Shown: positions 463 through 50,296 of the stretch, piece after piece | Position numbering within the stretch: position 1 is the first letter of the stretch | Layout: every line of letters starts with the position of its first letter | Origin: Pseudomonadota bacterium | Lineage (GTDB): Bacteria > Pseudomonadota > Gammaproteobacteria > Burkholderiales > Casimicrobiaceae | Length of the DNA: 64,000 nucleotides | Direction of reading: 5' to 3' | Assembly (NCBI GenBank): GCA_018241745.1 | Contig: JAFEDG010000144.1 | Span: forward strand, 1 to 64,000 | Notes under the pieces: model-generated | Seen by the model: the letters and a program-made list of their open reading frames with translations, nothing else | The model's database searches: none | Told to the model about the DNA's origin: nothing | Position numbers and translations under genes: made by a program

Positions 463-1575
463 CTAGAACAGCTCGCGCTGCGGTCCTTCCGCGCGCGGCA
501 CGGCGAAGCGCGCGACGTCGAATTCGTAGCGGCGCGCGTTGAGGCCCAGCCGGCGCGTCGCCAGCGTGAAGCGCTTGGCGATCAGCTCGGCGAAAAGCCC
601 CGCGCCGCGCATCCGCGTACCGAACTCGCTGTCGTAATCGCGACCGCCCCGCATCTGGCGGACGATGCTCATCACGTGCTCGGCCCGCAACGGGTAATGC
701 GACTCGAGCCATTCGACGAACAGGTCACGAATTTCGAGCGGCAGCCGCAGGATGACGTAGCCTGCGCTGTCGGCACCCGCTTCGGCGGCGGCTTCGAGCA
801 CCGTCTCCAGCGCGACGTCGGTGATCGCGGGGATGATGGGCGCCGTGATCACGCCCACCGGGATGCCGGCCGCCGCGAGCGTGCGCACCGCCTCGAGCCG
901 GCGGCGCGGCGCGGACGTGCGCGGCTCGAGTGTGCGCGACACGTCGTGGTCCAGCGTGGCGATGGACAGGAACACGCGCACGAGGCGCTTCTCGGCCATC
1001 CGCGCCAGGATGTCGATGTCGCGCTCGACCAGCGCCGACTTCGTGGTGATGCCCACCGGGTGGTTGAACCGCTCGAGCACCTCGAGCACCGCGCGCGTGA
1101 TGCCGCGCTGCCGCTCGGCCGGTTGATACGGGTCGGTGTTGGCGCCGAGCGCGATGAATCGCGGCTGGTAGCCAGGACGGCGCAGCTCGCGCTCCAGCAG
1201 CTCGGCCGCGTTGACCTTGGCGCGGATCCGGGTCTCGAAATCGAGCCCCGGCGACAGGCCGAGATACGCGTGCGTGGGCCGCGCGTAGCAATAGATGCAG
1301 CCGTGCTCGCAGCCGCGGTAGGGATTGATCGAGCGATCGAACGGGATGTCGGGAGACGCGTTGTGCGCGACGATGCTCTTGGCGACTTCGTCGGTGACTT
1401 CCGTGCGCGCGACGACGCCCGTGGGCGCGTCGTCGTCGCGCCGCGCGTCCTCCAGATAGCCGAGGTCGGTCTCGCGCTGCCACGCGTCGAACCGCGATTC
1501 CCGATTCGACGTGGCGCCGCGGCCCTTGGCCGGGACGATGGGGATGATGCCCCGGGGCGTGCGCAGCGCAGCCAT
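463..1575 (-). CDS. PA0069-family radical SAM protein
   Basis: A 370-residue radical SAM protein of the PA0069 type, distantly related to spore photoproduct lyase. The CxxxCxxC cluster that binds the 4Fe-4S centre is C89, C93, C96 within RGCEHGCIYCYARP. It is followed by GANTDPYQP and KSALVERDIDIL, both typical of this family. The reaction is not established; a DNA-repair role is suspected from fold relatives only. The ATG at 1575 follows no Shine-Dalgarno sequence, but a TATAGT -10 hexamer ends 6 bases before it, so the mRNA may be leaderless. A LexA-like palindrome sits directly upstream (1588-1603). It is separate from the GlsB-like gene upstream. Confidence 0.9.
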   Translation of the reverse strand: MAALRTPRGIIPIVPAKGRGATSNRESRFDAWQRETDLGYLEDARRDDDAPTGVVARTEVTDEVAKSIVAHNASPDIPFDRSINPYRGCEHGCIYCYARPTHAYLGLSPGLDFETRIRAKVNAAELLERELRRPGYQPRFIALGANTDPYQPAERQRGITRAVLEVLERFNHPVGITTKSALVERDIDILARMAEKRLVRVFLSIATLDHDVSRTLEPRTSAPRRRLEAVRTLAAAGIPVGVITAPIIPAITDVALETVLEAAAEAGADSAGYVILRLPLEIRDLFVEWLESHYPLRAEHVMSIVRQMRGGRDYDSEFGTRMRGAGLFAELIAKRFTLATRRLGLNARRYEFDVARFAVPRAEGPQRELF

Positions 1576-1577
1576 CG

Positions 1578-1611
1578 GGCCACTATACCGTATATCCGAA
1601 CGGTAGTGGCC
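1578..1611 (-). promoter_or_regulatory. Nested dyad with LexA-like CCGT-N8-ACGG box over the promoter of the PA0069-type gene
   Basis: An inner palindrome CCGT-ATATCCGA-ACGG occupies 1588-1603. On the coding strand it is followed at once by TATAGT (1587-1582), a good -10 hexamer. An outer perfect 8-bp inverted repeat, GGCCACTA (1578-1585) and TAGTGGCC (1604-1611), encloses it. The spacing and arms resemble the classical LexA box CTGT-N8-ACAG with the second base changed. A nearly identical 16-mer lies before the radical-SAM repair operon at 50281-50296. The operator role is inferred. Confidence 0.5.
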
Positions 1612-47557: not shown

Positions 47558-49030
47558 TCAGTCCTCGCCGCCAGCCCCGAGCGCGCGGCGAAGGTCGCCG
47601 ACCAGCGCCGCATACAGTTCGCGCTTGCGCGCCTCGTCCGGTGCGCGCAGGACCGCCGACGGATGGTAGGTCGCCGTGACCCCGGCCCCGCTGCCGTGGC
47701 GCAACGCGGTGCCGCGCGCCTCGCCGACGCGGACGCGCCGGCCGAGCGTCGCCGCCAGAGCCGTCGCGCCCAGCGCGACGATCTGCACGGGACGCACCTG
47801 CTCGATCTCGGCCTCGAGCCACAACCGGCATGCCTCGATCTCGCGTTGGGCTGGCGTCTTGTGGATGCGACGCTTGCCGCGCAGTTCGAAGCTGAAGTGC
47901 TTGACCGCGTTGGTGATGTACACGGTGGTCGCGTCGCCCCCGGCTTCCGCGATGGCGCGGCGCAGCAGCTTGCCGGCCGGGCCCACGAACGGCCTGCCGG
48001 CCAGGTCCTCCTCGTCGCCTGGCTGTTCGCCGACCAGCATCACCCGAGCGTTGGGCGGACCCTCGCCCGGCACCCCCTGCGTGGCCCGCCCGCCCAGCGG
48101 GCAGCGGCGACATCCGTCCAGACGCGACTTGTCGGGGAATGGCAGGTCGTCGCTCGCAGTGCCGTCATCCCGCGTGCTGTCGTCCGCGGGCGCCACCGCG
48201 CAGTGCCGGGCTGCCGCTGCGCGCTGCATGCCCCGCCCCGGTGCAGGGGCGGCTGCGATCGGTGCCAGCGTCGGCGGGCGCGCATCGCGTGCGGCGACCA
48301 CCAGCGCGGGAATCACCGCGGCCTCCGGCAGCAGCTTCCAGTAGGCGCGCGGCATTTCACGCTCCATCGTCGCCACGTTGAGGCGCGCGGGATTGAAAAT
48401 GCTCGTGTAGTAGGTGAGCCACAGCGATTCCGCAGCGTCCTCCGACGGGGCGGGCGGCGCGTCCGCCACTGCGAACAGCGCAAGGCGACGCCGATCCCAG
48501 CGCGCGCACCCATCCGGCGTCACGAGCGTCCAATCCATCGTCGCGAAGCGCCGGACGAAGAACGGGGCCGTCAGCGCGAGGACATCGTGCTCGGGCTCGA
48601 ACACCGCGATCCACCGCTCGCCCGCTTCCGTGCCGACGCGCCGGAACCGCACGAACGCGGTCATCTTGTGCCGGGCGCGGCTGACGGCCTTGGCCATGCG
48701 CGTGAGCGCGATGACATCGGCGTCGGCGGCGTCGTCGAGCAGCCCTCGCTCGCCATGCGTCATTCGCCATAGCGCACCGTACATCCGCGCATGGCGCGAC
48801 GGATCCCGGTGCGCGGAAACCAGCCGGAACAGGTCGAGTGCCTGCGGGGAGATGCTCGCCACCGGCGTCGACGGCGCGTCGTCCGCGCCGGCCGCTGGCG
48901 CAGGGTCCGACCACAAGCCGCCGACGCCGGCCCAGGCATCCCAAGGAGCCGCATGCGGCGGGATGCCGGCGCGCAGCAATCGCCGCGACTCCGCGCGCCA
49001 TGCGGTGAACGCGTCGTGCGCACTCACCAT
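47558..49030 (-). CDS. udgX: DUF4130-UdgX fusion: uracil-DNA cross-linking glycosylase
   Basis: A 490-residue fusion. Residues 1-285 form the DUF4130/TIGR03915 radical-SAM-associated domain (ALTRMAKAVSRARHKMTAFVRF in part, WTLVTPDGCARWDRRRL, YYTSIFNPARLN). The C-terminal 200 residues are a UdgX-type UDG with CRRCPLGGRATQ, VGEQPGDEEDLAGRPFVG (from 334) and the R-loop KRRIHKTP, where His390 should bond covalently to the abasic sugar after uracil removal. Iron-sulfur cysteines are present (CRRC, ACRLWL). The ATG at 49030 overlaps the radical SAM gene by 7 bp; a GTG at 49027 is also possible. Confidence 0.93.
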   Translation of the reverse strand: MVSAHDAFTAWRAESRRLLRAGIPPHAAPWDAWAGVGGLWSDPAPAAGADDAPSTPVASISPQALDLFRLVSAHRDPSRHARMYGALWRMTHGERGLLDDAADADVIALTRMAKAVSRARHKMTAFVRFRRVGTEAGERWIAVFEPEHDVLALTAPFFVRRFATMDWTLVTPDGCARWDRRRLALFAVADAPPAPSEDAAESLWLTYYTSIFNPARLNVATMEREMPRAYWKLLPEAAVIPALVVAARDARPPTLAPIAAAPAPGRGMQRAAAARHCAVAPADDSTRDDGTASDDLPFPDKSRLDGCRRCPLGGRATQGVPGEGPPNARVMLVGEQPGDEEDLAGRPFVGPAGKLLRRAIAEAGGDATTVYITNAVKHFSFELRGKRRIHKTPAQREIEACRLWLEAEIEQVRPVQIVALGATALAATLGRRVRVGEARGTALRHGSGAGVTATYHPSAVLRAPDEARKRELYAALVGDLRRALGAGGED

Positions 49031-50271
49031 AGCGACGCCTGGCGCGCCGGCACGAGCGCCTTGCGCAACGTCGGTGTCGCCACGTCCGCATGGGGCGGTC
49101 GCCAGTCGGCCGTGACGACGAACGCCCGCGCCTTCGTGAGGTCGCAACGCATCGTCGCGAGATCGGCGTAGCGCAGCCGGCGCCGGCGCCGCGTCGCGAC
49201 GATCCGTTTGACATTGCGCACGCCGATGCCGGGGATGCGCAGCAGCGCTTCGCGCGGCGCAGCATTGACGTCGACGGGAAAGAACGCGCGATGCGCGAGC
49301 GCCCAGCCAAGCTTGGGATCGACATCGAGGTCGAGGTTGCCTTCCGGCAGCGTGGCGACGATCTCCGCCGCGTCGTAACCGTAGAAACGCATCAGCCAGT
49401 CGGCCTGGTAGAGCCGGTGCTCGCGGACGAGCGGGGGCGCGTCCGGCAACAGGCGAGGCGATGGCGACGGGATGGGACTGAACGCGGAGTAGTAGACCCG
49501 CTTCAAGTCGTACGCCGCGTACAGCCCGGAGGCCGTTGTCAGGAATGCAGCGTCCGTCGAGCGGTCGGCGCCGACGACAAGTTGCGTGCTCTGGCCTGCG
49601 CTCGCGAAGACGGGCGCGACGTCCTTGCGCGCCAACGCGCCGCGCGCGTCGCGGCGCCGTTCGCGGTCCTGCCGCCGCGCGACGTGGATGCGCGCCATCG
49701 TCTGCTTGGCCGCATGGGAGGATTTCTCGGGCGCGAGCGCCGACAACGATGCGTCGCTCGGCAACTCGAGGTTCACCGAAAGCCGGTCCGCATAACGCCC
49801 GGCCAGCGCGATGAGACGCTCGTCGGCCGCGGGGATGGTCTTCAGGTGGATGTATCCGCGGAAATCGTGGTCCTCGCGCAGCGAGCGCGCCACGGCCACG
49901 ACCTGCTCCATCGTGTAGTCGGGCGAGCGGATGATGCCCGACGACAGGAACAGGCCTTCGATGTAGTTGCGCCGGTAGAAATCGAGCGTGAGCCGCACGA
50001 CCTCGTCGATCGCGAAGCGCGCGCGGGGCACGTCGCTCGACCGGCGATTGACGCAATACTGGCAGTCGTACAGGCAGAAGTTGGTGAGCAGCAACTTGAG
50101 CAGCGAGATGCAGCGGCCGTCGGGCGCGTAGCTGTGGCAGATGCCCATGCCTGTCGTCGAGCCGACGCCGGCCTGCGCACTCGACCGCCGGCCCGCCGCG
50201 CCGCTCGACGCGCAGGAGGCGTCATACTTGGCGGCGTCCGCGAGGACAGCCAGCTTGTCGATAAGGTTCAT
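49024..50271 (-). CDS. Putative DNA modification/repair radical SAM protein
   Basis: A 415-residue radical SAM enzyme of the TIGR03916 group. The 4Fe-4S site is C66, C70, C73 in NFCLYDCQYCVNRR. Other landmarks are GICHSYAPDGRCISLLK, SSGIIRSPDYTMEQ and GYIHLKTIPAAD. A C-terminal helix-hairpin-helix (APREALLRIPGIGVRNVKRI) suggests DNA binding. Its regular partner, the UdgX fusion, follows with overlapping codons. The reaction is unknown. ATG at 50271 has no ribosome site and is directly downstream of a -10-like TATCGA and a LexA-like palindrome. Confidence 0.92.
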   Translation of the reverse strand: MNLIDKLAVLADAAKYDASCASSGAAGRRSSAQAGVGSTTGMGICHSYAPDGRCISLLKLLLTNFCLYDCQYCVNRRSSDVPRARFAIDEVVRLTLDFYRRNYIEGLFLSSGIIRSPDYTMEQVVAVARSLREDHDFRGYIHLKTIPAADERLIALAGRYADRLSVNLELPSDASLSALAPEKSSHAAKQTMARIHVARRQDRERRRDARGALARKDVAPVFASAGQSTQLVVGADRSTDAAFLTTASGLYAAYDLKRVYYSAFSPIPSPSPRLLPDAPPLVREHRLYQADWLMRFYGYDAAEIVATLPEGNLDLDVDPKLGWALAHRAFFPVDVNAAPREALLRIPGIGVRNVKRIVATRRRRRLRYADLATMRCDLTKARAFVVTADWRPPHADVATPTLRKALVPARQASLW

Positions 50272-50274
50272 GGA

Positions 50275-50296
50275 TCGATACCGTATGGATATACGG
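50275..50296 (-). promoter_or_regulatory. LexA-like palindrome and -10 region of the radical SAM/UdgX operon
   Basis: CCGT-ATGGATAT-ACGG (50281-50296) is a 16-base palindrome. Its reverse strand, CCGTATATCCATACGG, differs at only two positions from the box before the PA0069-type gene at 1588-1603. Toward the gene it is followed directly by TATCGA (50280-50275) and then, three bases on, the ATG. The layout equals that at 1575-1603. Confidence 0.55.

Follow-up and report, generated by a model that had tools for sequence, protein, structure and literature searches.

LexA, the repressor of the SOS response, of the E. coli type binds a 16-bp palindrome, CTGT-N8-ACAG, whose 4-nt arms are separated by 8 bp. 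LexA is known for changing its operator over evolution (17 motifs reported, PMC8565304), but the steps of such changes are rarely visible. An altered-specificity mutant of E. coli LexA made in the laboratory, LexA408 (Thliveris, Little and Mount 1991; used by Dmitrova et al. 1998), probably carries P40A, N41S and A42S and probably reads CCGT-N8-ACGG, although the published reports found establish only that its DNA-binding domain reads a mutated operator. Two further LexA types are relevant here: the alphaproteobacterial type, with the direct repeat GAAC-N7-GAAC (PMC8565304), and the Sideroxydans lithotrophicus type (Sanchez-Alberola et al. 2015, listed in PMC8565304), for which the motif appears to be GAACGaaCGTTC. 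In the present study, we examined two palindromes of the form CCGT-N8-ACGG in a 64,000-nucleotide stretch of DNA (the window; contig JAFEDG010000144.1 of assembly GCA_018241745.1) from an uncultured betaproteobacterial genus.

On the minus strand, CCGTATATCCATACGG was located at 50296-50281, 9 nt before the ATG at 50271-50269. A second site matching it at 14 of 16 positions, CCGTTCGGATATACGG, was located at 1603-1588, 12 nt before the ATG at 1575. The arms CCGTAT/ATACGG (50281-50296) and TACCGT/ACGGTA (1586-1605) were perfect inverted repeats. The first site precedes an rSAM_link_UDG gene (49024-50271, minus strand; 415 aa; TIGR03916, 537.6 bits), which encodes a putative DNA modification/repair radical SAM protein, and a UdgX-type gene (47558-49030, minus strand) that overlaps the stop of the radical SAM gene, has a likely start at MVSAHDAFTAW, and contains DUF4130 and uracil-DNA glycosylase domains (PF13566 and PF03167). 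The second site precedes a PA0069 family radical SAM gene (463-1575, minus strand; NF033668, 501.6 bits). The sequence-only reading had proposed that both sites directly abut a -10 hexamer. This was credible for the PA0069 gene, in which the candidate -10 hexamer TATAGT (1582-1587, minus strand) abuts the box, but weak for the UdgX operon (TATCGA), and in lexA orthologues the -10 TATAAT lay upstream of the main box or inside the first of two tandem boxes. The bare pattern CCGT-N8-ACGG was not significantly enriched in the window (3 found against 2.1 expected). In contrast, when the full 16-mer was searched with up to 3 mismatches, exactly these two sites were found against 0.11 expected, and 0 of 100 shuffled sequences reached two. 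By base composition, two unrelated 16-mers in this 70% G+C window would agree at 14 or more positions with a probability of about 2e-6.

We next searched the whole 3.47-Mb draft genome. Only four places were within 2 mismatches of CCGTATATCCATACGG, whereas a control pattern gave 1. In addition to the two sites in the window, an exact copy was present directly before dnaE2, an error-prone DNA polymerase gene (PRK05672, 1420 bits), and CCGCACATCCATACGG was present directly before lexA itself. The lexA promoter had a second box, CCGCCTATAATCACGG, 18 bp upstream, which contains the -10 TATAAT. The encoded protein had the LexA DNA-binding and S24 peptidase domains (PF01726 and PF00717) and scored 242.9 bits against TIGR00498 (cut-off, 110.95). 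The sequence-only reading had inferred a small damage regulon from a LexA-like palindrome and had named lexA, dnaE2 and recA among the genes to be searched for the motif. The first two did, whereas the recA promoter had no CCG box. As judged from pattern searches, a small regulon therefore fits, but the damage response as a whole appears to be split.

To examine conservation of the box, eighty lexA loci were collected by similarity, together with further loci from the genus and from other genera of the family. Two of the records, titled Bordetella parapertussis MAG and Klebsiella pneumoniae MAG, carried lexA genes that grouped with uncultured Betaproteobacteria or Rhodocyclaceae, and their titles are probably misassigned. 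All 19 lexA loci of genus members had a CCGN-N8-ACGG box beside a TTGAC/TATAAT-type promoter, about half of them as a tandem pair 18-19 bp apart, and dnaE2 had such a box in 9 genomes. Genus-wide, there were 29 matches within 2 mismatches against 1 control match, mostly before lexA and dnaE2. Because a box pattern was used to pick most sites, their arms look more invariant than those of an unbiased set would. Outside the genus, lexA had CTGT-N8-ACAG or a near match in nearly all loci.

Interestingly, the LexA protein changed together with the box. E. coli LexA reads its site with helix III, in which Ser39, Asn41, Ala42, Glu44 and Glu45 are contacting residues (PMC3091678). When 22 LexAs of the S41-S42 group were aligned with 75 others, only three columns of the whole protein separated the two groups, namely 39 (T or A against S), 41 (S against N or T) and 42 (S against A), all of which are DNA-contacting. 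Position 40 was not part of the switch, because many CTG-box LexAs also have A40. The Ala84-Gly85 cleavage site and the catalytic Ser119 and Lys156 were retained in 22 of 22 members of the S41-S42 group and were invariant in both groups. Among 106 lexA loci, some of which were the same species fetched twice, 29 of 30 LexAs with the S41-S42 helix had a CCG box, and the 30th, from the sister genus G083 (V-S-S helix), had no recognisable box upstream. LexAs with the N/T helix had CTG boxes. A crude automatic rule did not call CTG for three of these loci, of which two were ties and one, L095, had a GC-rich CCG match that outscored the one-mismatch CTG site CTGTATATATTACCAG. In a maximum-likelihood tree, the S41-S42 group had a single origin (support 100/92). 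A search for this helix found it only in the same genus among 399 genomes of the order and only in the window's own genome among 369 genomes of the class, although the search patterns were degenerate and would miss some codon choices and the V-S-S form. The association of helix and box is thus strong as a pattern but represents one evolutionary event.

These findings bear on whether the CCG box is only GC-driven drift of the ordinary CTGT-N8-ACAG box without a change in LexA specificity. The G+C content of the window, and the fact that CTG to CCG and CAG to CGG are A/T to G/C changes, would favour drift. However, both symmetric positions changed together in every examined site while the AT-rich core was kept, and the three diagnostic LexA columns are DNA-contacting residues. 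We therefore consider drift very unlikely. N41S and A42S, which LexA408 probably also carries, were present in 22 of 22 members of the S41-S42 group and in 0 of 75 others. If LexA408 carries the substitutions and reads the operator given above, most members of this genus have exactly A40-S41-S42 and the matching operator naturally. The natural protein would then differ from LexA408 in also having S39T and D45, in having P or V at position 40 in some members, and in coming with a matching set of natural promoters.

The radical-SAM/UdgX operon was found only in the window's genome among 26 genomes of the family searched, indicating that it is probably a recent arrival there. Homologous operons on plasmids of other lineages carried a LexA-type box of their own lineage. 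At -27 to -29, three operons from Caballeronia had CTGTATAAATATACAG or CTGTATAAACATACAG, and that of Cupriavidus had CTGTATATCCATACAG, which differs from CCGTATATCCATACGG only at the two symmetric bases. Two operons from Leisingera and one from Azospirillum had GAAC-N7-GAAC within 45 bp, and Novosphingobium had one at -118. The operon is thus wired to the local LexA wherever it was examined, and the retention of CTGTATATCCATACAG in Cupriavidus is a further argument against drift.

The PA0069 gene showed a similar but less tidy trend. Its orthologues in the outgroup genus g2 had the CTG boxes CTGTGCATAATCACAG or CTGGCTAAAAATACAG. A CCG box was present in only 2 of 20 genus members examined, the window's genome and G410, in which CCGTATATTTATCCGG lies at a comparable place; about six others had a second palindrome, described below, or a near match to it, and nothing was recognisable in the rest. 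The PA0069 site, with 2 mismatches to the consensus, is the least certain of the four, and it is possible that it is a coincidence while the UdgX-operon, dnaE2 and lexA sites are real. We regard this as unlikely, because the arms are perfect and extended to TACCGT/ACGGTA directly at a -10-like TATAGT, G410 has a box at a comparable place, and outgroups have a CTG box.

Taken together, the results support, with high confidence, the explanation that the sites are operators of LexA, and that in this genus the chromosomal E. coli-type LexA, with S39T, N41S and A42S in its recognition helix, has exchanged the ancestral operator CTGT-N8-ACAG for CCGT-N8-ACGG. Binding, repression and induction are inferred from sequence. 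Most likely, without damage a LexA dimer covers the box over the promoter and start region and represses lexA, dnaE2, the radical-SAM/UdgX operon and the PA0069-type gene, and after damage the RecA filament triggers cleavage at the Ala84-Gly85 bond and these genes are induced. The change appears confined to three DNA-contacting residues and one base per half-site, with close outgroups on the old code and a newly wired operon showing the new code, and offers a directly testable case of protein-operator co-evolution. By inference, it also places the poorly understood radical-SAM/UdgX operon and the PA0069-type gene under damage control in several lineages.

Most genomes of the genus also encoded a smaller LexA-like S24 protein, about 36% identical to LexA, which scored 104.3 against TIGR00498, just below the cut-off. 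Its promoter carried CGAACGNTCGTTC (GAAC-N4-GTTC) between -35 and -10, and usually a second copy at the start of the gene. The same palindrome was present in the recA promoter of every genus member whose recA locus was read, although many of these loci were found through the palindrome itself and are not an unbiased sample. In the window's genome, the second repressor gene (contig C76, 23816-24307, minus strand) and recA (contig C124) shared CGAACGATCGTTC in their promoters. Genus-wide, the pattern was strongly enriched over its control, and it is probably the motif of the Sideroxydans-type LexA; here, the second repressor coexists with the E. coli-type LexA rather than replacing it. The presence of this second repressor with its own conserved operator, and the occurrence of either operator before PA0069 genes in different species, raise the possibility that another regulator binds the CCG box. 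This is very unlikely, because the second repressor's own promoter and recA carry CGAACGNTCGTTC, whereas the CCG box is in every promoter of the first lexA examined in the genus and covaries with the helix of that protein.

Among the few family members examined, the second repressor was found in the genus and in G083, where the first LexA has S41 and S42, and not in genus g2, which keeps the N41-A42 helix and the CTG box. It is somewhat more likely than not that a natural counterpart of LexA408 has evolved together with its promoters in a genus whose second LexA has taken over recA, so that the SOS response is split between two repressors with different operators. The second LexA may have left the first a small regulon and so made its change of specificity easy, which fits the published duplication-and-divergence model (PMC8565304) but is inference. 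Two genus members, G409 and G415, each about 95% complete, had the second repressor but gave no hit for the first LexA, a possible loss of the primary LexA. In the window's genome, CGAACGATCGTTC also preceded an ORF starting MALSADVLNPEQQRAV (contig C113, 24239) with an ATP-binding helicase look, for which no NCBIfam family matched in the frame used. In addition, the palindrome preceded a gene for a ligase-associated DNA damage response DEXH helicase (TIGR04121) in the window's genome (contig C115, 4515) and in genus member G413.
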